Source of the DNA: Sphingobacterium sp.
GTDB taxonomy: Bacteria; Bacteroidota; Bacteroidia; Sphingobacteriales; Sphingobacteriaceae
NCBI GenBank assembly: GCA_029239355.1
Contig: JAQZAZ010000007.1
Location: forward strand, 47,562-111,561
Length of the DNA stretch: 64,000 nt
Reading direction: 5' to 3'
Below are positions 3,680 to 14,226 of the stretch, piece by piece. The position numbers and the translations under genes are program-made. The first letter of the stretch is position 1. Every line of letters starts with the position of its first letter. The notes below the pieces were generated by a model. It did not search any database, was not told the origin of the DNA, and worked only from the letters and a program-made list of their open reading frames with translations.

Positions 3680-4615
3680 ATGAATAACAATATTAAAATT
3701 AAAGAAAATAAGGGCTTTAATGAGGATAGCTATGCACGGCATGCGAAATGGTATAGCACACTCTATCCAGAAAGAACCCAGAAAATAAGAATACTCGAAA
3801 CCTTAAAGAATTACGATGGGAGTATAAACCATTGGCTACAGAACCTTTTCTTTAGATGTTTAGATCCTTTCACCCAAGAAAAGAATACTCACTGGTTGAC
3901 CATTGGTGATGCTTATGGCCATGATGCACGGCATCTGATAGATCAGGGTATTGATAATGTAATGGCAAGCGACCTGGACGATAGTTTTCTCAAAGTATCC
4001 CAAGAAACAGGTTTTATTAAAGCATACTGCGCACAGAATGCAGAATCGTTAACGTTTAAAGACAATAGTATAGACTATATTCTCTGTAAGGAAAGTTACC
4101 ATCATTTTCCGCGCCCCTATGCTGCGCTCTACGAAATGATACGAGTGGCTAGACAAGCCATTGTGATCATTGAACCGCAGGATCCTATTTCTAAAATGCC
4201 AATTTTATTGTTCCTTGCCAATCAATTGGGAAAGATCAATGACAGGGTAATCAATAAAATCTGGAAAAATAGATTTTCTTTTGAGAAGGTCGGGAATTTC
4301 GTATACAAAGTCTCTGAAAGGGAATTTGAAAAACTTGCCGCAGGGCTTAATCTACCTATGATAGCGATCAAGGGAATTAATCCCAACTTTTGGTTTCCCG
4401 GTAGCGAAGAGATCAGCGCAAATAAAAGAACGCGAGCTTTTAGAAACATTCTTTTGAAAAAGAAAATTCGTGATTTTTTGTCTACTCTCGGGATATTGCC
4501 GAGCCAAACACTTGCTATCGCCATTTTTAAGAAAAAACCCGACGATTCACTTAGAAAATCTCTTGTTGAAGAGGGGTACCGATTGATTGAAATCCCTCCA
4601 AATCCCCATCTTTAG
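3680..4615 (+). CDS. Class I SAM-dependent methyltransferase
   Basis: 311 residues. Motif I appears as WLTIGDAYGHDARHL near residue 75, followed by an acidic loop (ASDLDD), then NAESLTFKDNSIDYI and the post-motif helix containing KESYHHFPRPYAAL and EMIRVAR. These are typical of Methyltransf_11-like enzymes. The N-terminus contains a YARHAKWYS segment seen in bacterial SAM methyltransferases that act on small molecules or lipids. The substrate is not predictable. The gene stands alone, with about 290 bases upstream and a 646-base gap downstream. Confidence 0.8.
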   Translation: MNNNIKIKENKGFNEDSYARHAKWYSTLYPERTQKIRILETLKNYDGSINHWLQNLFFRCLDPFTQEKNTHWLTIGDAYGHDARHLIDQGIDNVMASDLDDSFLKVSQETGFIKAYCAQNAESLTFKDNSIDYILCKESYHHFPRPYAALYEMIRVARQAIVIIEPQDPISKMPILLFLANQLGKINDRVINKIWKNRFSFEKVGNFVYKVSEREFEKLAAGLNLPMIAIKGINPNFWFPGSEEISANKRTRAFRNILLKKKIRDFLSTLGILPSQTLAIAIFKKKPDDSLRKSLVEEGYRLIEIPPNPHL

Positions 4616-5261
4616 AGCGAGATAGTCATACTTTAATTTTTATATAATATTAAGTCACAATAATTGGTTATTTGATAACAGCGCTGATGGTCGATACAAC
4701 AACTTTGAAGCATCAGGATCCATTATCTAAGTGTATTAACTTGTAGCTGATCTGAGTTTGGGCAAACAGATCCTTCAGCATGTTTAAACACTGGCAGCGT
4801 GCAAAAAAAGCGAAATTTTATGAAATTAGATTATATCTAATAGTTTCCTTTACAGAGAAAATTTCCCATGGAAATCCAGCCTGTGTTGCCCCTTGAAAAA
4901 GCTGATTGCCGGATGAAATACCCTTAAAAATAGCCCGTGAAAATGAAAATACGATTCACTTGTGATAGTTAACCCCTGAGACTGAAAAGGATCTATGCGA
5001 GCATACTCTCCTTGCAAGGTAAAGTACGAACTTCTTCTCGGGGTCACATTTGGATAGAATAACACTATCCAAATGCCTTACAACTTAACAATTCTAAAGA
5101 CCACGAGTTATTAATAATGAAAACACGGGATTATTATCCAATTTAATACATGATCGGAAATTCTGCGGCTCGCGCTATTGGCAAAGCCTCATCCTCATTA
5201 TGGATTATATGATTGGTGTAAAGTTCAAAATCTTCAATAAAAAAGGTAGTAACCAACGCTA
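4616..5261. other. Gene-free stretch
   Basis: No supported gene. A 71-codon leftward frame at 4850-5065 is open, but it has no recognisable domain and no signal peptide, so I leave it uncalled. A coding remnant there cannot be excluded. Confidence 0.4.
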
Positions 5262-7472
5262 TTAATCCATCCAAATTTCATCGCAGGCAATAGAAATCTT
5301 CCGCGTGGGATGATAGCGCCATTCCGGTAGGGAAGCAAATGGTACGGCATAAACATGAACTATTTTAACATCATCTCTTATTGGGGCTTTAAATTTGACT
5401 TTCTGCACTGTATAATCCTCATCAATTTCTTCAATTTTGGAAAAAAGTAACTCTTTAAAATGTTCTCCATCTTTTGAAGCCATGATACGAATCTCTTTGG
5501 GAGTAAAAATCCAGTGCCGCGCATCCTGAAGGAAACTGAGTTCTAGGGTATCCACTTTTTTTGCCTTTTCGAAGTTAAAAGCAATATCCATAGGTTCGCC
5601 CGTCCATAATAGCCAATTATAGCTATAATCGAGATAGCCAGGTACACTATCAGTTAAAGTACCTGATCCATTAGCAGGGAACGAAGGATCAAAAGGGTAT
5701 TTCATCGTCATTTTTGCCTCAGAGGCTTTATTCGCACGCAGTCCTGCACTAAATATACCTTCCCATTCTGCTGCATATTGATCTGGAGAGACACCGCCTT
5801 CGGCAAGCTCTATCACGCCTAGTTTCTTTGCATCTTCAACAAACTGTCGTAGCTTGCCTTGTACACTTGACCTTACGATCCACTTCCCATTCGCCTCCGT
5901 AAATATCCCATGTTGGCGCGACCCGTAAAACCGCGCCTGCTGTAAATAGGTATAATCCAGCCCTAGTCCCAATCTTCTGACACGTTGTTCCAATAGCGGA
6001 TTACCTTCATTTAATATTTCAGCTTTCTCCAGTAAGTTGCTGTATTGATCCATTTTCTCAGGGCTCAAATAATCTTTCCTGTTATCAATCGGATTCCCAT
6101 AGATTGATAAGGCGGAAGAGACTGCGGGTAAGGCATTTCGCCGGGCATTAAGGTAGGCTTTAATGACCGGACCAGCCTTGCCGTAATACCCATTGACAAA
6201 TTCATCCGTAAGCTGATCTTCAGAGATCGTATTGTTCCATACCAGATGAGCTAAAATATATGCATTTAGTTCTGCCATATCACTATAACTAGCTCCTCCT
6301 CCTTGCAAAAATACCCCCTCTACCTCCTGGCGTTTTAAATAGTCCAGATTTTTCTGCAAAGTTCCTTGAATAGGAAAAGGAGCAAGGTAATTTGTAAACT
6401 GCGTTAAATAGTCCCATACAAAGACATGTGCTGCTTTGGATTTCCAGTCACGCAACTGTCTGCGGAATGTAGCTGCGGATGGTTCATTGCTAATCTCTCC
6501 TTTACGAAACGCATCAATATTACTCAATATGACCGAAACATTGTCAGCCACACGAAGATGGGTGGGGGCATTGGCTGTCTGCAAATAAGCGAGTGTCGTA
6601 AATTCCTTATCCGGAAATTTAGCAGCGACCCTATTTACAAAGTGGATCAATGACCCTTGGGCTCCGCCCTCGCGTTTATCAATAGCCTGGCAGTATTCAC
6701 AGGTACAACTGCCGATATCGTCATTTTGCGCTATCGACCAGTATTTGGCTTGCGGATTTTCAAGCATTTTTTGCCTGAAATATGCAACGGTATGTTCAAA
6801 AACAGCTTCATTGGAAAGACAGAGCTGGGTAGCTTGTCGTTTCCCATTATAGAGGGAGTAATATTCGGGGTGTTCTTTAAAATAAACGGATGGTGGTAAT
6901 ATCTTATTAAAGTTATGTCCCCAATCGCCCCATTTTTCTTCTAAATTATCAAGACCATACCAGTCCAGGTATTCCTGATCCAGCTCGATTGGGAAATATA
7001 CTTCTCGAAACTTGAAATTGGGTTTTGCAAAAACATAAAAATCGGCATCCACTACCAACGAAGATAACTTAGGAATGAAGGTATTCTCCCTCCCGGTATA
7101 CCATTTCCGTGCGCCGATAACATCTCTCACGTAGCGATAAGCGCCATAAAGAACGCCGCGGCCACTACCTTTGATATACATATTATCCCCATTAAACTGT
7201 ATCGAATAACTGTCTTCTGGATATGTTTTGTCTATTGATACCTGCTCCAATATGATCGCTGGCCGATCTTGGTCCTTAGCCTGCAAGTCAAATGCCGTAC
7301 CTGTACTTAATTTTGTAAATTCGTTGATTACCGCGGCTGCTTTTAGCAGAGTTGAATTGTTTTGGTCAGTACGGATCACATAATTGGCAACACCTTCATT
7401 CACCAATGTAATCCGCTCTTTACCCTGAGCTATTGTTGCAACAAAAAGCAGACATAACATATACTTCCACAT
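5262..7472 (-). CDS. DUF4838 glycosidase-like protein with C-terminal discoidin-type domain
   Basis: 736 residues with an N-terminal signal peptide (LCLLFVATIAQG). Residues about 20-125 resemble the N-terminal alpha/beta domain of GH67 alpha-glucuronidases (GRGVLYGAYRYVRDVIGARKW). Residues about 130-415 form the DUF4838 barrel, with the family's Cys-rich NDDIGSCTCEYC segment. A helical region follows, and the last 140 residues look like an F5/8-type carbohydrate-binding domain. It should act in the periplasm or at the surface on a glycan; catalytic residues and substrate are not assigned. It is the last gene of a five-gene operon, one base after the TPR/beta-barrel gene. In the PNAG system a glycan-modifying enzyme occupies the equivalent role (PgaB), so trimming or modifying the exported polymer is a reasonable inference. 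Confidence 0.8.
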   Translation of the reverse strand: MWKYMLCLLFVATIAQGKERITLVNEGVANYVIRTDQNNSTLLKAAAVINEFTKLSTGTAFDLQAKDQDRPAIILEQVSIDKTYPEDSYSIQFNGDNMYIKGSGRGVLYGAYRYVRDVIGARKWYTGRENTFIPKLSSLVVDADFYVFAKPNFKFREVYFPIELDQEYLDWYGLDNLEEKWGDWGHNFNKILPPSVYFKEHPEYYSLYNGKRQATQLCLSNEAVFEHTVAYFRQKMLENPQAKYWSIAQNDDIGSCTCEYCQAIDKREGGAQGSLIHFVNRVAAKFPDKEFTTLAYLQTANAPTHLRVADNVSVILSNIDAFRKGEISNEPSAATFRRQLRDWKSKAAHVFVWDYLTQFTNYLAPFPIQGTLQKNLDYLKRQEVEGVFLQGGGASYSDMAELNAYILAHLVWNNTISEDQLTDEFVNGYYGKAGPVIKAYLNARRNALPAVSSALSIYGNPIDNRKDYLSPEKMDQYSNLLEKAEILNEGNPLLEQRVRRLGLGLDYTYLQQARFYGSRQHGIFTEANGKWIVRSSVQGKLRQFVEDAKKLGVIELAEGGVSPDQYAAEWEGIFSAGLRANKASEAKMTMKYPFDPSFPANGSGTLTDSVPGYLDYSYNWLLWTGEPMDIAFNFEKAKKVDTLELSFLQDARHWIFTPKEIRIMASKDGEHFKELLFSKIEEIDEDYTVQKVKFKAPIRDDVKIVHVYAVPFASLPEWRYHPTRKISIACDEIWMD

Positions 7473-7473
7473 A

Positions 7474-9006
7474 TTAAAAATATTTCCTTAATGAGAGATT
7501 CAGATCATACTGATTCATAAATCTATTTTCAGCAACTTTGTAATAACTCCATCCGCCCATAAGCGTAAATCCCCAGCTTTCGATACGATGTTGCCATCCT
7601 GCATTGACGGATCGCGACAAAAAACCAAATCTGTTGTTTAAAAACTGATACCGAGAAGGATCGTCCGGAGAGGTTCCGATATTGCCAATGATAGTGACAT
7701 AGGAATTAGGCTTTTCGCTATTGTAATAGTGCCTTACTGCCAGCGAGTAAGCCTGATTCCAACGCTGTTCGTCATGCAATAAAAATCCCCTAAGATAGAT
7801 AAAGGTCGGCCCAAAATATCGTCCTGCTGACGCAACCATTCCATAATTGTTCGTATGGTCAGCCGATCGCACATAACGTCCCCCTACATCAAAAAGCCAA
7901 AGGCCGGCCTCCCGATAAAGACTATATGCTGCCCGCCAGGTAGGAAATACGGTTCCATCGGCCCAGGCAAGATGATGATAAGCATATAATTTTGAACTAT
8001 AATTCAACCAAGCATCCAATCCCACCTGATAACCCTTTTCTCCCCTTCTATTTCCGTAGTTGAACTGACCAATAAACATATTTTTTTCGCCCACTTTCTT
8101 CCCATATTCCACTCCAGAAATAAAGAAGTGCCCGTTGGGTCTATCTTGTGCACTTTGTGTATGATTTAATCCGACATAGAAATTATAGGGTAAATTTTCG
8201 CGATATACTTTGGCCAATTGACGATAACGCTCCACTTGTGGTGATTGCTGCTGCAGTTGTTCCATATAGGTCAAAGCAGTCTGATAATCTTTATTTGCAG
8301 CAGCGATATTCGCCAGCTGCTCGCGGATAAATAGGGTACTATCCCCTTTATCCCAAAGCATTTTATACCCACTTTTTGCTTTATTATATTCCTTGACAGA
8401 CATATAAGCATTGGAACGGAGGTATAAATAACGATGATCGTTAGCATCTGCTTGCTGCATACTGTCCGAAAGAGTAATTGCTTTTTGCTGCTCTCCCCGT
8501 TCAATAAATTTTAGGCCTTCTTTGTACCAATTGTCGATGTTACGGTTGACAGAATTTTTCGCACTTCTGGCTTCAAATTCTTGGTATGCTGTTGTCAGCG
8601 CTACATCGTCAGGAAATCGCTTATGTGCCAGCATCCAAATTCGACCCGCTTTGTCTATTTCGCCTTTTGCCTCATATAATGATGCCAGAGGTGAGTAGCT
8701 GTCTTTATATTTCGGATCACTTGACATAACAGCTTCGAAATACGGAATAGCCCAATCCGCCCGTCCCATCTTTTGGTAGCTCAATCCCAAAATATAATTA
8801 AAATCACTGTACTGTGGATATTTAGCCAATACCGTCCTACTCAGCATAACCGACTGGTCCAACTTCCCTTCGCGCAGATAGCCGATTGCCTGCGGCACCA
8901 AACTATCCACATCATATTTTTTGTTTTGCCAGACCACCTGCGCTGAAATGGTTTCAGCGAACAAGAACTGACAGAAAACGACTATTAAAATCAACAATTT
9001 GTTCAT
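7474..9006 (-). CDS. TPR protein with YaiO-type outer-membrane beta-barrel
   Basis: 510 residues with a signal peptide ending near ISAQ. Residues about 28-265 carry several TPR-like helical pairs (for example YILGLSYQKMGRADWAIPYF and LASLYEAKGEIDKAG). From about residue 275 the sequence changes to amphipathic, aromatic-rich strands (GKKVGEKNMFIGQFNYGN) and ends in the C-terminal strand LNLSLRKYF, typical of an outer-membrane barrel. A periplasmic TPR scaffold fused to a barrel is the architecture of polysaccharide exporters such as PgaA and BcsC, and of the N4 receptor NfrA. Four bases separate it from the upstream GT2 gene. The proposed role is conducting a polymer through the outer membrane. 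Confidence 0.8.
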   Translation of the reverse strand: MNKLLILIVVFCQFLFAETISAQVVWQNKKYDVDSLVPQAIGYLREGKLDQSVMLSRTVLAKYPQYSDFNYILGLSYQKMGRADWAIPYFEAVMSSDPKYKDSYSPLASLYEAKGEIDKAGRIWMLAHKRFPDDVALTTAYQEFEARSAKNSVNRNIDNWYKEGLKFIERGEQQKAITLSDSMQQADANDHRYLYLRSNAYMSVKEYNKAKSGYKMLWDKGDSTLFIREQLANIAAANKDYQTALTYMEQLQQQSPQVERYRQLAKVYRENLPYNFYVGLNHTQSAQDRPNGHFFISGVEYGKKVGEKNMFIGQFNYGNRRGEKGYQVGLDAWLNYSSKLYAYHHLAWADGTVFPTWRAAYSLYREAGLWLFDVGGRYVRSADHTNNYGMVASAGRYFGPTFIYLRGFLLHDEQRWNQAYSLAVRHYYNSEKPNSYVTIIGNIGTSPDDPSRYQFLNNRFGFLSRSVNAGWQHRIESWGFTLMGGWSYYKVAENRFMNQYDLNLSLRKYF

Positions 9007-9010
9007 TGCT

Positions 9011-10447
9011 CTATTTTTTTGCCCCGTCCGTTGGTAAGGGCGTTAAGGTACCTTTGCGTTTCATTTCTCCCCAGGCATGTTTTTTACCAAAAAGCTCCTG
9101 TATATATCCTTTGATAGAACTGTACACGATGATCGGATGATATATAAAAGGTTCTAAAAATGCGGTGAGGCACAAGCGAACAATATCCTGCCTGCGTTTA
9201 TAATACTTATACACATAATTGTCCAATAAAATCGAAAAGCTTGTTAAAAAAACCGAAAACATATATACAAAAACCAGTAGCAGAATAGCCATCTGCCAGT
9301 TGATTCCATTTGTCAGGATCAAATAGATATAAAAAAATATGCCCAGAATTTCCATAATTGGAGCAAAGAACTCAAAAATTGCATTATAGGGAAATACGAT
9401 CAGTCCAAACTTTCGATAGCTGGGATTGAAGAAGACCTTGCGATGCGTTCGCATGATCTGCATGAGACCCCTTGCCCATCGGATACGCTGACGTGTTAAC
9501 ATTTTCAAGCTATCTGGCCCCTCTGTCCAACATAATGTCTGCGGGATATATTTAACCTCATATTTTTCATTATTGTCGCACATCTTCATACACATCCTGG
9601 TGACCATTTCCATATCCTCCCCCAACGACTTTGGATCGTATCCGCCAGCCGCAATAAGAATTTCCTTATCAAATAAACCAAGTCCACCAGATACATTGGG
9701 AATACAATTCAGGTAATTCCATCCCATTTTACCAAGAAGGTATGATCGGATGTATTCCATTTCCTGAAATCGGGCGAGGATCGGTTTAGGCAAAGCCGCT
9801 TCAACCAGCATCCCTGAATCCACATAACTCGAGTTGGACATACGTAAAGTCGCTCCTACGGCGATGACACGTTCCTTGGCATCCAATACGGCCTCCATCA
9901 AATACACCAATGTATCATTGGCAAGCACACAATCAACATCTGTATTCAATATATAAGGAAAGGCTGCGACATTTATTCCGGCATTGACTGCATCAGCCTT
10001 ACTTCCGCCGTTTATCTTGTCAACGACAGTCAGGCGTTTATGGGAAATATCACGCGATTTATAAATTGCTTTAATTTCCTTGCAGGGAACCAAATAATCG
10101 ACCATAAAATCGACCGCCACAAGATCGAATTCCTTGATCAGTTTTGCTAAGGTATCATCCTTACTTCCATCATTTACGATCACGACCTCATATCTTGGAT
10201 AAAAAAGGGTCATCAACGAACGAACATTATTTACAATAGTCACCGACTCATTGTAAGCAGGTGCGACAATACTGACTCCCGGCGCAATTTCCGATTCCAT
10301 GAGCGTTTGAGTCCGTCTGGAATTGCGTTTTCGAAGGTTCTTGCGAATCGAAAGCGATGATAGCCGAAACAGCATAACATACACCACTAACAATAAAAGA
10401 CAATATAATCCAAAAACAAATTCTACTGAAGAAATAAAATGTGTCAT
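9011..10447 (-). CDS. Membrane GT2 glycosyltransferase, processive-synthase type
   Basis: 478 residues. One N-terminal membrane helix (FGLYCLLLLVVYVMLF) is followed by a GT-A domain with IVNDGSKDDT, the DxD motif in LNTDVDC, the acceptor-base motif GEDMEM and the product-binding motif RQRIRWARG (QxxRW class). Three to four C-terminal helices follow (residues about 355-450). This set of motifs defines processive inner-membrane synthases such as PgaC, hyaluronan synthase and cellulose synthase. It presumably uses a UDP-sugar to build and translocate a polysaccharide. No PilZ domain is present. It lies between the HEAT-repeat gene (22 bases upstream) and the TPR/barrel gene. Confidence 0.88.
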   Translation of the reverse strand: MTHFISSVEFVFGLYCLLLLVVYVMLFRLSSLSIRKNLRKRNSRRTQTLMESEIAPGVSIVAPAYNESVTIVNNVRSLMTLFYPRYEVVIVNDGSKDDTLAKLIKEFDLVAVDFMVDYLVPCKEIKAIYKSRDISHKRLTVVDKINGGSKADAVNAGINVAAFPYILNTDVDCVLANDTLVYLMEAVLDAKERVIAVGATLRMSNSSYVDSGMLVEAALPKPILARFQEMEYIRSYLLGKMGWNYLNCIPNVSGGLGLFDKEILIAAGGYDPKSLGEDMEMVTRMCMKMCDNNEKYEVKYIPQTLCWTEGPDSLKMLTRQRIRWARGLMQIMRTHRKVFFNPSYRKFGLIVFPYNAIFEFFAPIMEILGIFFYIYLILTNGINWQMAILLLVFVYMFSVFLTSFSILLDNYVYKYYKRRQDIVRLCLTAFLEPFIYHPIIVYSSIKGYIQELFGKKHAWGEMKRKGTLTPLPTDGAKK

Positions 10448-10469
10448 ATAAAAACCTTTCCCCTAATAT

Positions 10470-11585
10470 TTAAATGTAATGGACCATTGGATGATTAACA
10501 GAGCGTATGAGTTTACTTTCTTCGCTATCCAGTTCTCCATCTATTTTTCGCAAAAGCGGTGTACTATAAGGTTTTTGAGCAACCAATGAGCGATAAGCGT
10601 GCTTTCGAAGGCTTAATGGCAAATTGCTGTCTATAAACAATCGGTACAGGAAATCAATCGATTTTCCTTGTCCTATGCGGCCGAGCGCCTTCAGTATTTC
10701 CAATTTAGCTGGCAGGCCGCTTTCCCCCGTATATAGCTCCTGCAATCGCTCTTCGCTATCCTTTGCCAATAGTTTGCCTAATGAGTTAACAGCTTTTAAA
10801 GCAGTTTTTGATTCCTTATTGGCGTTAATTAATTCCCAAAGCCCCGCTTCGTTTAGTTCTTGGTAATAGACCATCAGATCCATGATCAAGCTATTAACTT
10901 CAAAGGATTTCGACACATCCAACCATTGCGAAAATATATAGTCACCAAAATAGTCTCCCTGGACAATTGTCTGAAAGATATCAAGCGCATGAAGTTGACT
11001 GATCCCATACAGTCCATTAAATATCCTGTCAAAAGCTTGCTCTCCGTTCACCTGCAATAGGTATTTAGATGCTGCAACACGGATTTCAACCTGAGGACTT
11101 TTCAGCAGCTGATCGAGGATCTTTTCCTGAATGGACACCTTCATCAAGGCCAGATTGGCCAGGGACCTCACCGTTGTCACCATGTTCGTAGCTGAATGTC
11201 TAATTTCATATTGTGCTTCTTTATCAAAGCCCAGTTCATTGAAAAGGTTTCGCATACTCCGGCCTTTCTCCCCTCCAATTGTGAAGATAAAATCGTGTAA
11301 AATATGGCGTACAACCTTACTCACAAGCTTATTATGCAAATCCAGTCCCAATTTATCAACCGGAAAATGGTTGGTCCGGTTTTCCACAAGAACTTGTTCG
11401 TAGATAAAATCCCTTAATGCCGGATAGATCCTAGAATAGGCTCTCCCATACCGATAATCACGGTAATAAAAGAAGGCGATTCCAATAAGACTTGCTGTCC
11501 AAAACAGCACGCTCAAGACCAGGGCAGCGATAACAAGTATCGGCCAGCCATCACCTTCAAAAAAGGCGCGAATATCATGCATCAT
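10470..11585 (-). CDS. Membrane-anchored HEAT-repeat protein
   Basis: About 371 residues. A single strong transmembrane segment (LVIAALVLSVLFWTASLIGI) sits near the N-terminus, followed by a soluble region of helical pairs. The clearest repeats are around SPQVEIRVAASKYLLQVNGE, SKTALKAVNSLGKLLA and SGLPAKLEILKALGRIGQG, typical HEAT units. Such proteins act as protein-binding scaffolds. Between a receiver gene and a GT2 synthase, it could link phosphorylation state to synthase activity; that is inference. The start is uncertain: ATGs at 11585, 11582 and 11606 are all possible, the last overlapping the receiver stop codon. I prefer 11585, which leaves a short cytoplasmic lead before the helix. 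Confidence 0.75.
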   Translation of the reverse strand: MMHDIRAFFEGDGWPILVIAALVLSVLFWTASLIGIAFFYYRDYRYGRAYSRIYPALRDFIYEQVLVENRTNHFPVDKLGLDLHNKLVSKVVRHILHDFIFTIGGEKGRSMRNLFNELGFDKEAQYEIRHSATNMVTTVRSLANLALMKVSIQEKILDQLLKSPQVEIRVAASKYLLQVNGEQAFDRIFNGLYGISQLHALDIFQTIVQGDYFGDYIFSQWLDVSKSFEVNSLIMDLMVYYQELNEAGLWELINANKESKTALKAVNSLGKLLAKDSEERLQELYTGESGLPAKLEILKALGRIGQGKSIDFLYRLFIDSNLPLSLRKHAYRSLVAQKPYSTPLLRKIDGELDSEESKLIRSVNHPMVHYI

Positions 11586-11598
11586 ATATGTCAATGTC

Positions 11599-11979
11599 CT
11601 AAGCATGCCCAATCCGCAAACGTACACGTGAAATTAACTCAGATGGAGATATTGGTTTTTTGATATAATCATTTGCCCCCACTTCAAAGCCCTCCACAAT
11701 ACTGTTGTCGTCGCGATATCCTGAAATAATAATAACTGGTACCTGATTATTAGTGTTGCTCTTTCTAATACGGTCTATAATTTCAAAACCATTAGCAAAA
11801 GGTAGTGCCAGATCAGTAATAACCAGATCAATTGATTCGTCCGAGACCAGAGAGAGCGCTTCCTTGCCAGATTTGGCAAGCAATAGGTCGTATCCCTCCC
11901 GTAAAAGAACAAATTGCATGGTGCTCAACAGAATCTCATTATCTTCGACAACAAGGATTCTCTTTTTTTTGTCCCACAT
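11599..11979 (-). CDS. Single-domain response regulator (receiver only)
   Basis: 126 residues, one receiver domain and no output domain. Acidic pocket residues are in LVVEDNE, the phospho-acceptor Asp in VITDLALP, the conserved Ser/Thr in IIISGY, and the Lys in YIKKPI. The longer frame to 12012 would start at TTG, so the ATG at 11979 (MWDKKKRIL) is preferred. It is the first gene of the operon, and its stop lies within or just before the HEAT-gene start. A stand-alone receiver at the head of a polysaccharide operon suggests output through protein-protein contact, perhaps with the HEAT scaffold. No histidine kinase is encoded nearby. Confidence 0.85.
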   Translation of the reverse strand: MWDKKKRILVVEDNEILLSTMQFVLLREGYDLLLAKSGKEALSLVSDESIDLVITDLALPFANGFEIIDRIRKSNTNNQVPVIIISGYRDDNSIVEGFEVGANDYIKKPISPSELISRVRLRIGHA

Positions 11980-12107
11980 AGTGTGATTGTTTAGTTTTTC
12001 ATTGTGAAACAAAAGTTGATAAAAAAAAGGAAACTACCTGTAGTACAACCACTACAAGCCTATCAATATCATTTAAACGCAGTTTTTTCTTATAACCATC
12101 AAATAAC

Positions 12108-12144
12108 ATGACAATAAAATGACAATACAAACTTGATTTGTCAT
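12108..12144. promoter_or_regulatory. Direct and inverted ATGACAA repeats, candidate operator
   Basis: ATGACAATA occurs at 12108-12116 and again at 12119-12127 (period 11 bases, one helical turn), and TTGTCAT, the inverse of ATGACAA, occurs at 12138-12144. The cluster is about 130-165 bases upstream of the first gene of the five-gene operon. Helically phased copies suggest binding by a regulator, but the protein is unknown. Confidence 0.35.
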
Positions 12145-12297
12145 AATAAAATACTCGTCTTATTATATAAAAATTAAACTTTTAGGATCAACACATCAAT
12201 GCTGCCGAGTAAAGCTAAGGATAGAGGTCTTTGATTTGGGACTCCAATCATACGTACCGCTATGATGGAAGTCTTTCTAAGGATTTTAATCATAAAT

Positions 12298-12344
12298 TTC
12301 AATAGCAAATAAGGGTGCGCATATCGCACCTTTATTGCTATTGA
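12298..12344. terminator. Terminator-like inverted repeat after the aldo/keto reductase gene
   Basis: The arms TTCAATAGCAAATAAGGGTG and the matching CACCTTTATTGCTATTGAA surround a CGCATATCG centre. It lies just beyond the stop codon of the leftward reductase gene (12350). The stem is long with one small imperfection. Confidence 0.55.
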
Positions 12345-12349
12345 ATATA

Positions 12350-13474
12350 TTAAGCCTTTGGTACCGGCGCATTTTCTTCTATTAGTTTTTCATGCTTCAA
12401 CTCTTCCCAAAAGCTAGCTGCTATCTTAGTCTTGAAGGATTGAGCATTTTGAATTGCCTGCTCGACAGTATGGGCTCCAGGTATAACGCCGGACACTTCG
12501 GCTGGTGCCGCAGCAAATTGCAGGGCTGCTGTACGTAGATCTACTGCATGATTCGCCGCAACCCGTTGTAAAGCATTAAGTTTTTCTTTAACTCCGGCAG
12601 GGAATTTACCATCATACAGATAACGGTTTTTACCGGACAGAAATCCAGCGCATAAAGGAGCTCCCACAACAATCGACACGTCCCGTTCAGCCACCTTTGG
12701 GAATAACTTATTTAGATCATCGTCATGTTTGATCAATGAATATTGACAGGCGGAGAGAAAGATATCGGGATCTGCTACCTCCAATGTCTGCAATATAGGC
12801 TCTACGGTATTGACTCCGAGGCCCCAGCCTTTGATTATGCCCTCCTCTCTCATTTTAGTTAGTTCGGGCATTGCTCCCTTAATCGCTTGTTCGAAATACT
12901 GCGCATAGTTGTCTTTCATATCGCCATTATCTGGTGAAAGATCATGAATAAATACAATGTCTATTGACGACAAGCCTAAGCGCTGTAGGCTATCTTCTAC
13001 ACTTCGTCTCACGCCTGCCGCACTATAATCATATTGATAACCAAAATTTAGCTTCCCTTTCCAAAGTAATTGTTCCTTTGTAAAATTCTCTTCTGGCACT
13101 AAAATTCGTCCTACCTTGGTAGAAAGTGTAAAGCTGTCACGGGGTTGGTCTTTTAAAAATAAGCCCATTCTACGTTCACTAATACCCAGACCATACCAAG
13201 GGGAGGTATCAAATAGACGTATCCCAGCATTCCATGCGGCCTCTACCGTCTGTAGACATTCAAGATCTGAGTTTTGCTGAAATCCGTTACCCAATGCTAC
13301 CCCGCCAAGTCCAGCTTTATTGGTGGGACGAAATCGCTTCTTCTGTGTTAAATTTTGAGGTGTTGTCATCTTATTTTCTTTTGATGTTGTTAACAAAATA
13401 TCAGGTGTAGCTGCACTCAGTGCAAAGCCCGCGCCTGCAAGGCTGGCCTGTACCAAAAATTTTCTTCTTTTCAT
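12350..13474 (-). CDS. Aldo/keto reductase with an export signal
   Basis: 374 residues. The N-terminus MKRRKFLVQASLAGAGFALS looks like a twin-arginine-type or lipoprotein-like signal, so the enzyme is probably exported. Residues about 50-360 form an AKR barrel with catalytic Asp and Tyr in LFDTSPWYGLGISE, Lys in LSTKVGR and His in VFIHDLS. The pattern resembles the D-threo-aldose/L-fucose dehydrogenase-like AKR subgroup, which oxidises or reduces sugars with NAD(P). An exported AKR is unusual because free NAD(P) is not expected in the periplasm. It follows surE by 17 bases and may share its transcript. Confidence 0.85.
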   Translation of the reverse strand: MKRRKFLVQASLAGAGFALSAATPDILLTTSKENKMTTPQNLTQKKRFRPTNKAGLGGVALGNGFQQNSDLECLQTVEAAWNAGIRLFDTSPWYGLGISERRMGLFLKDQPRDSFTLSTKVGRILVPEENFTKEQLLWKGKLNFGYQYDYSAAGVRRSVEDSLQRLGLSSIDIVFIHDLSPDNGDMKDNYAQYFEQAIKGAMPELTKMREEGIIKGWGLGVNTVEPILQTLEVADPDIFLSACQYSLIKHDDDLNKLFPKVAERDVSIVVGAPLCAGFLSGKNRYLYDGKFPAGVKEKLNALQRVAANHAVDLRTAALQFAAAPAEVSGVIPGAHTVEQAIQNAQSFKTKIAASFWEELKHEKLIEENAPVPKA

Positions 13475-13491
13475 ATGCTTTATCCTCTATC

Positions 13492-14226
13492 TCATTTCCC
13501 TTGACTCGCCAGTCTGGCCGAAAGCTCATCATGCGCAGTCAGATCCAGCCGTAAGGGTGTAATTGATACCAGTTTATTTTCTACTGCCCAACGATCTGTC
13601 CCTTCCTCTGCCGGTTCAAGTGGTATTACTGTAATCCAATAGTTCTTTCTTCCCATAGGGTCCTGACCGGGCACTACATTGCCATCGTAAAGCCGTACCG
13701 ATTGCCGCGTCCAGGAGATTCCCTTGGGTTTTGGCGGAAAATTCACATTATAGAGGGCCGGTCCCTTATTGTTAAGCAAGATCTTGAGGACATCAGCTGT
13801 CCATTCAGATAGTGCTTCAAAATCTGGTTCCGACTTGCCAACAGGTGTGCTTAGAGCGATACCGGTAATACCAAGGAGCATAGCTTGTTTTGCCGCTGCA
13901 AGGGTCCCAGAGTGCCACATGGAATTCCCCAAATTCGGTCCCATGTTGATGCCAGAAAGGACCACCTGTGTATCGGGAAACATATGTAGGCCCAATGCCA
14001 CGCAGTCCGCCGGTGTCCCATTAACCCTAAAAGCATCAATTCCCTCAAAGGTAATAGGCGCGCTTCGGTAGCTTAGGGGCCGGGAATGGGTGATAGCATG
14101 TCCCATAGACGACTGTTCTACATCTGGCGCAACAATCCTAACGGTACCAAACTGCCTCGCGGTTTTCGCTAGTGCTGCTATGCCCGGCGAATAGATACCA
14201 TCATCATTTGTAATAAGTATATTCAT
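13492..14226 (-). CDS. surE: 5'/3'-nucleotidase SurE
   Basis: 244 residues starting MNILITNDDGIYSPGI, the exact N-terminal SurE signature with the metal-binding DD pair. Further family motifs are VAPDVEQSSMGHAIT, VNGTPADCVALGLH and SGINMGPNLGNSMWHSGT. The frame is open upstream to 14349, but that would add 41 residues unlike any SurE, so the ATG at 14226 is used. SurE hydrolyses nucleoside monophosphates in the cytoplasm and contributes to stationary-phase survival. The start lies 52 bases from a divergent lipid kinase gene. Confidence 0.95.
   Translation of the reverse strand: MNILITNDDGIYSPGIAALAKTARQFGTVRIVAPDVEQSSMGHAITHSRPLSYRSAPITFEGIDAFRVNGTPADCVALGLHMFPDTQVVLSGINMGPNLGNSMWHSGTLAAAKQAMLLGITGIALSTPVGKSEPDFEALSEWTADVLKILLNNKGPALYNVNFPPKPKGISWTRQSVRLYDGNVVPGQDPMGRKNYWITVIPLEPAEEGTDRWAVENKLVSITPLRLDLTAHDELSARLASQGK

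Follow-up and report, generated by a model that had tools for sequence, protein, structure and literature searches.

Can a bacterium build and control a synthase-dependent exopolysaccharide machine without cyclic di-GMP (c-di-GMP)? The question is raised by a compact operon in a 64,000-nucleotide stretch of Sphingobacterium sp. (GCA_029239355.1, contig JAQZAZ010000007.1, positions 47,562 to 111,561), hereafter the window, which belongs to a 6.0-Mb assembly of 316 contigs that is 91% complete. An earlier note, made from the letters alone, had described a receiver, a membrane HEAT-repeat protein, a QxxRW-type GT2 glycosyltransferase, a TPR/beta-barrel exporter and a DUF4838 protein in that order, and had taken them for an undescribed exopolysaccharide system. 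All five genes were found as described, on the minus strand between positions 5262 and 12012, with each domain backed by Pfam. We read them as parts of a synthase-dependent exopolysaccharide machine controlled through the receiver and the HEAT protein rather than through c-di-GMP, with a probability of roughly 0.68; the operon is probably a widespread, unnamed way to a surface or biofilm polysaccharide. The earlier observation is confirmed, and its interpretation is partly supported. The genes are as follows.

5262..7472, minus strand: DUF4838 protein with a signal-like N-terminus and a C-terminal F5/8-type-C-like domain; predicted polymer hydrolase (Pfam, AlphaFold2, Foldseek)
7474..9006, minus strand: TPR and YaiO barrel protein; predicted exporter (Pfam, TIGR04390, AlphaFold2, Foldseek)
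9011..10447, minus strand: GT2 glycosyltransferase with N- and C-terminal membrane segments; predicted polymer synthase (Pfam, NCBIfam, motifs, hydropathy)
10470..11627, minus strand: HEAT-repeat protein with one N-terminal transmembrane segment (Pfam HEAT_2, hydropathy, alignment, position 5' of the GT2 gene)
11599..11979, minus strand: stand-alone receiver (response regulator without output domain), 126 amino acids (aa) from the ATG at 11979 (Pfam Response_reg)

Successive genes are spaced by 1, 4 and 22 bases, with a short overlap or a 13-base gap between the HEAT and receiver genes. The HEAT start codon is uncertain (11627 to 11582): a GTG at 11627 gives a 29-base overlap with the receiver gene, and an ATG at 11585 gives the 13-base gap. 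The gaps of 1, 4, 22 and about 13 bases reported earlier are therefore borne out, the last of them for the ATG at 11585. No terminator-like or sigma-70-like site was found at 4616-5300, and Rfam gave no match at gathering thresholds in 4500-13500. Within the 381 bases that precede the receiver gene, a Bacteroidota-type -33/-7 pattern matched once and only loosely, and this match was not used.

Conservation was assessed by a scan seeded with the GT2, with one genome per species. The scan returned 107 relatives. The 80 with the best scores were retained and 79 of them counted, L086 being the one left out, although its reading frames show the same genes; the window is subtracted from the counts that follow. 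The GT2 of the nearest named relative is from Sphingobacterium (98% identity), and all 80 titles name Bacteroidota except for one contig labelled Beijerinckiaceae. A HEAT gene lay directly upstream of the GT2 in 68/68 loci with enough upstream sequence and was preceded by a receiver in 66 of these. Among the 67 loci with enough downstream sequence, YaiO followed in 65 and DUF4838 in 62. The check set beforehand, a search for the same gene order elsewhere in Bacteroidota, found all five genes in 55 of the 61 loci with both flanks, a conservation far beyond chance. The single GT2 and the 510-aa exporter described earlier are true of the window and of Sphingobacterium; two tandem GT2s occur in 42 of these 61 loci, against one in 19, and outside the genus the TPR/YaiO protein is usually about 960 aa long.

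We then used HEAT, YaiO and DUF4838 profiles to search a phylum-wide sample of 158 Bacteroidota genomes, the window included. HEAT gave 28 matches in 22 genomes (two being pieces of one gene), and all 28 lie directly beside a GT2 of this family. YaiO gave 45 matches in 42 genomes; a family GT2 was near in 43 of the 45 places, 0 to about 5 kb away, with HEAT directly beside that GT2 in 41. The YaiO proteins of L123, L124 and L134 are weak Pfam matches that our custom YaiO profile missed. Family GT2s near HEAT or YaiO scored at least 321 bits against a profile of 36 aligned GT2s, compared to 72 bits for E. coli PgaC and 164 bits for the next GT2 in the genome that holds the window. DUF4838 had 16 matches in 15 genomes, seven of them inside such operons. 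Because of these counts, we define the core as HEAT-GT2-YaiO and take DUF4838 as the marker of one subtype. The receiver, DUF4838, the second GT2 and sulfatase- or lipoteichoic acid (LTA)-synthase-like domains are variable parts, so the five-gene unit proposed earlier stands for most related loci and narrows to three genes as the conserved unit.

The window GT2 matches Pfam Glyco_tranf_2_3 (E = 8e-18) and carries intact catalytic motifs (D93, D170-x-D172, E277-D278 and Q320-R-x-R-W324). These motifs, with N92-D93-G94 around the first aspartate, are invariant in 36/36 aligned GT2s, and PgaC, BcsA and NodC line up with them at the D, DxD, ED and QxxRW columns, in agreement with the QxxRW-type assignment made before. 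For the six GT2s checked, hydropathy places one membrane segment at the N-terminus and two or more at the C-terminus. Motifs and membrane segments together fit a processive synthase, though they are no proof of one.

A tree of 67 rows was built; near-identical L010 and L011 and a short WcaA match were left out of it, and the profile did not recognise OpgH, WcaE or the GT2s of L007 and L008. The HEAT-linked GT2s formed one clade (58 rows, support 95/97), at whose base two alphaproteobacterial sequences branch. Outside this clade fell PgaC, BcsA, YaiP, NodC, ArnC and four more GT2s of the same genome. The earlier note had asked whether the enzyme clusters with non-processive transferases; it does not, and it does not group with PgaC or BcsA either. 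Since long branches meet, with end branches reaching 10 changes per site, we set the tree aside as proof of processivity, made no use of the order of the outside references and relied on the HEAT-linked clade only. Within it, DUF4838 operons form one subclade (42 rows, 100/100), which includes L091 and L017 without DUF4838.

The distance of this clade from the reference synthases would also suit an enzyme that transfers single sugars or assembles a glycan on a lipid, such as a decorated glycolipid or a teichoic-like chain, with YaiO as an outer-membrane assembly or modifying protein without a pore. Sister systems that carry LTA-synthase- or phosphoglycerol-transferase-like domains, fused to the GT2 in two scanned cases, point the same way, as does the lack of a PgaD- or BcsB-like protein among the five. 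Nevertheless, we consider this explanation unlikely: QxxRW and the paired aspartates are invariant throughout the alignment, membrane segments flank the GT2 domain, TPR and barrel are combined as in BcsC, and no other genes recur inside the operon, although a lipid-carrier gene could lie elsewhere.

Among NCBIfam models, PgaC_IcaA is the best match both of the window GT2 (129.5 bits, equivalog cut-off 422.3) and of the sister GT2 in L089; the window GT2 scored 57.9 bits against CelA (cut-off 699.1). Membership in the poly-N-acetylglucosamine (PNAG) or cellulose systems was rejected, as both curated cut-offs were missed by far. A diverged pga operon making ordinary PNAG, in which DUF4838 replaces PgaB and the HEAT protein and receiver replace PgaD, would explain this best match and the hexosaminidase-like fold predicted for DUF4838. 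We judge it improbable, since the PgaC_IcaA score is less than one third of the cut-off, a PgaB-type deacetylase domain is not in the five genes, and the tree does not join PgaC, whose own placement is unsure, with the clade. Neither PgaD nor a PgaB-type deacetylase appeared when the five proteins were compared with Pfam up to E = 1, or among the NCBIfam matches listed, which for two of the proteins are the best 25.

The exporter passed the Pfam cut-offs for both TPR and the YaiO barrel (YaiO E = 9e-29), and its family assignment is supported by PF19413 (101.2 bits, cut-off 23.9) and TIGR04390 (81.7 bits, cut-off 32). An N-terminal hydrophobic, signal-like segment is followed by a TPR superhelix (about 33-270) and the YaiO barrel (276-509). 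The AlphaFold2 model (mean predicted local distance difference test, pLDDT, 90.1) predicts 14 barrel strands, and its best Foldseek match over TPR and barrel is E. coli BcsC (E = 1.2e-9), which upholds the earlier call of a TPR/beta-barrel exporter at the level of a predicted fold.

The DUF4838 protein exceeds the curated cut-off of PF16126 by a wide margin (E = 3.4e-85, 286.5 bits against 26.6); its F5_F8_type_C match is below threshold (26.7 bits, cut-off 28.2). Residues H186, D251 and D354 are conserved. The Foldseek/VIA fold matches of its AlphaFold2 model (pLDDT 88.4) mix hexosaminidases, GH84 and GH115 and so do not point to a single substrate. In sequence searches against solved structures, the one strong match listed is 6q63 (BT0459, a beta-hexosaminidase), mainly over the C-terminal domain. 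The protein is likely an exported glycosidase of the GH20/GH84/GH115 fold group, as predicted from the model. We make no claim of a lipoprotein signal: the pattern classed 29/69 DUF4838 N-termini as lipoproteins and overlooked evident cysteines, and the window copy lacks such a cysteine.

In Table 3 of PMC9870897 a DUF4838 protein is labelled GH163, a family that, according to a passage of PMC10154615, includes an enzyme cutting host N-glycans. The operon protein resembles GH163/DUF4838 glycosidases in its Pfam match and its predicted hexosaminidase-like fold; it differs in context, since the DUF4838 subtype sits in a synthesis operon. We set aside DUF4838 as a proven GH163, as no GH163 entry was among the listed structure matches and the folds were mixed. 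The label raises the idea of a glycan-catabolism locus, with DUF4838 breaking down N-acetylhexosamine glycans of foreign origin that the remaining genes would detect or process. DUF4838 genes outside the operon in L142, L143 and L144 do adjoin genes of 1,038-1,116 aa, a length that would suit SusC-like receptors. A role in catabolism is very improbable for the operon itself, which contains no SusC-size gene, keeps HEAT-GT2-YaiO without DUF4838 in L017, L018 and L020, and includes a membrane GT2 without known role in uptake.

With respect to control, the receiver is a clear Response_reg match (E = 2.9e-28) with an intact phosphorylation site: D24, D67, S97 and K119, numbered in the 137-aa frame from the TTG at 12012, are kept in 66/66 receivers before HEAT, window included. 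The HEAT protein (HEAT_2, E = 2e-6) has a single transmembrane segment at residues 30-48 followed by an arginine-rich stretch, so that under the positive-inside rule its repeats should face the cytoplasm, on the same side as the GT2 domain. Among 43 more distant loci, 29 have a single receiver within 4 kb and 13 have a larger receiver-containing protein (at least 400 aa), the one scanned (L089) being a hybrid kinase.

As the earlier note had stated, PilZ and BcsB-like domains are missing: the five proteins have none among their Pfam matches up to E = 1. PilZ was found in 0/22 HEAT-bearing genomes (5/14 control genomes were positive) and GGDEF in 2/22 compared to 8/14; the window's genome yielded neither. 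c-di-GMP is scarce in Bacteroidota, and PilZ is usually absent. Given this scarcity, the counts show that c-di-GMP is not the usual switch of the operon and are no proof that the receiver is.

For the working of the operon, we infer a polymer that is made processively, exported and controlled by a signal. The membrane GT2 would polymerise an activated sugar and pass the chain across the inner membrane, and the TPR-YaiO protein would lead it out via the predicted 14-strand outer-membrane barrel; in between, the DUF4838 glycosidase-like protein would likely cut or trim it. Phosphorylation, and not c-di-GMP, is likely the signal through which the membrane HEAT protein and the receiver switch the synthase, and HEAT may keep the receiver close to the GT2. 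The kinase gene that adjoins the receiver in L089 suggests that the window receiver may be fed by a kinase encoded at another place in the genome. The similarity to PgaC and the hexosaminidase-like DUF4838 fold point to a beta-hexosamine (N-acetylglucosamine-type) chain.

How does this compare with known machines? Passages of a 2020 survey (PMC7112194) define Gram-negative synthase-dependent systems, covering five polymers, by a synthase in the inner membrane, a component that either binds c-di-GMP or acts as co-polymerase, a modifying enzyme in the periplasm, and TPR plus a pore. The GT2, with all motifs and membrane segments, is consistent with the synthase feature, as is DUF4838, with its signal-like N-terminus and predicted glycosidase-like fold, with the modifier feature. 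The TPR-plus-pore feature is present as domain content, in a protein that may conduct a polymer. Neither PilZ nor another c-di-GMP domain was found in the five proteins (Pfam to E = 1). The claim that the locus reproduces every functional part of PNAG and cellulose systems stands for the exporter as domain content and would stand for synthase and modifier, and the operon lacks the c-di-GMP part of the definition. For this reason, we do not file the operon as a member of the defined class and hold that it works like one.

Like pgaABCD of E. coli K-12 (L109), the operon joins a QxxRW membrane GT2, closest to PgaC among named models, to a modifier with a glycosidase-type domain in one operon. PgaA likewise combines TPR with an outer-membrane barrel. 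The operon differs in having HEAT and a receiver, no PgaB-type deacetylase, PgaD or c-di-GMP part, a YaiO-type exporter (14 strands in the model) and a GT2 in its own clade. With bcsA, B, Z and C (E. coli K-12; L111) it shares a synthase, a hydrolase and a TPR-barrel exporter, and the sister loci of sulfatase type may hold an equivalent of BcsG-type decoration. In contrast to bcs, it has neither PilZ nor BcsB, its hydrolase is DUF4838 instead of the GH8 enzyme BcsZ, and its GT2 is far below the CelA cut-off. The E. coli yaiS-yaiP-(yaiX)-yaiO cluster (L110) likewise brings together a YaiO barrel, a GT2 and a presumed modifying enzyme, but lacks a HEAT or receiver gene; in YaiP, the Q of QxxRW is replaced by R, and the protein falls outside the operon's GT2 clade.

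Several observations weigh against a receiver-controlled exopolysaccharide machine. The GT2 falls far short of the cut-off of its best-matching model, PgaC_IcaA, and the clade is separate, with very long branches to every reference synthase. PgaA and BcsC barrels have 16 strands, compared to 14 in the YaiO model. DUF4838 lies outside the operon in 9/16 places, and no GH163 structure was among its listed sequence or fold matches. Since PilZ is usually absent in Bacteroidota, its absence does not single out the operon, and the receiver is not the only switch, because 14/43 distant loci have no single receiver within 4 kb. Gene content is also uneven: the receiver is absent in L056 and L064, YaiO in L033 and L057, and DUF4838 downstream in 5/67 related loci (L017, L018, L020, L033, L057). 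YaiO occurs without a family GT2 in the stretches of L127, which ends at a contig edge, and L138; no HEAT was recognised in L120 and L132, and no YaiO in the HEAT-GT2 stretches L102, L150 and L152.

Aimed searches of open-licence literature gave no account of the operon among the matches listed, which agrees with its having been called undescribed and is not proof of it; HEAT passages of PMC12419801 and PMC10434189 were unrelated. We see an even chance that HEAT-GT2-YaiO is a sixth, phylum-wide class of synthase-dependent machines and a main Bacteroidota polymer route, run by a phosphorelay through receiver and HEAT adaptor and fitted with exchangeable modifiers (the DUF4838 glycosidase, a sulfatase/LTA-synthase-like transferase or a family of about 390 aa). 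If true, it would add a further type, in about a quarter of the sampled Bacteroidota genomes (YaiO, 42/158), to the five polymers in the passages of PMC7112194, whose operons carry a c-di-GMP-binding part. It would also show by what means a bacterium that has no PilZ can control a machine of this type, and would assign a function to genes annotated as HEAT repeat protein, glycosyltransferase, YaiO family and DUF4838.

Published induction data may be re-read in this light. In Table 3 of PMC9870897, Polaribacter dokdonensis beside an alga shows the GT2 MED152_03905 up 8.8-fold and the DUF4838 protein MED152_03915 up 18.5-fold, both of which a passage about the use of N-acetylglucosamine counts among carbohydrate enzymes. 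A 6-fold rise is also given for MED152_03105, which bears the label response regulator (GT2). Because the tags MED152_03905 and MED152_03915 fit the operon, Polaribacter cells beside the alga may be making polymer.

The window's genome has a second, paralogous system, L089 (G000:C42:2000-20000), with a hybrid kinase (1304 aa), a receiver (118 aa), HEAT (355 aa), a GT2-sulfatase/LTA-synthase-like fusion (1140 aa) and a convergent YaiO (420 aa). Of three loci scanned, the sulfatase-family domain (PF00884), weakly LTA-synthase-like, is fused to the GT2 in L089 and L099, the latter beside DUF4838, and separate in L092; L089 and L092 were also scanned with NCBIfam. The core occurs beyond Bacteroidota on Mesorhizobium ciceri plasmid pMc1192 (ATP-binding protein, two response regulators, YaiO, HEAT, GT2, Hpt) and an Erythrobacter aureus plasmid (response regulator, TPR, HEAT, GT2, PAS protein). 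These alphaproteobacterial clusters resemble the operon in grouping receiver, HEAT and GT2 with kinase-type genes near, and differ in having no DUF4838 in their stretches; their records give the clusters no name. In Bacteroides finegoldii L112 (NZ_OY725906.1), HEAT and GT2 are accompanied by DUF4838 and by a TPR protein of 988 aa that matches YaiO weakly; no receiver was found in the vicinity. The L112 record, titled 'plasmid 4', carries dapB and a DUF2851 gene and so may be chromosomal.

Further variation was seen among single loci. The contig labelled Beijerinckiaceae (L023) sits among Chitinophagaceae rows of the GT2 tree and is thus a probable mis-binned metagenome contig. An insert of the form C-x-x-C-G-x-x-H, resembling a metal site, is present in the second of the tandem GT2s in L023, L045, L051, L053 and further Chitinophagales loci; neither the first tandem GT2 nor the window GT2 has it. 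L096 (G142:C19:143000-162000) has two HEAT-GT2-YaiO systems in tandem, one with DUF4838 and the other with a separate 796-aa protein at the place of the sulfatase-type protein of L092. A protein of about 390 aa recurs beside HEAT-GT2 in L101 (9655-10827), L095 (4224-5375) and L107 (4843-6030); those of L101 and L095, which are 33-41% identical pairwise with that of L107, gave no Pfam or NCBIfam match, making this a candidate new modifier family. L101 (5395-6969) also encodes a 524-aa HEAT protein, with a 520-aa one in L104; its signal-like start and long stretch before the membrane segment suggest that it may sense something in the periplasm.

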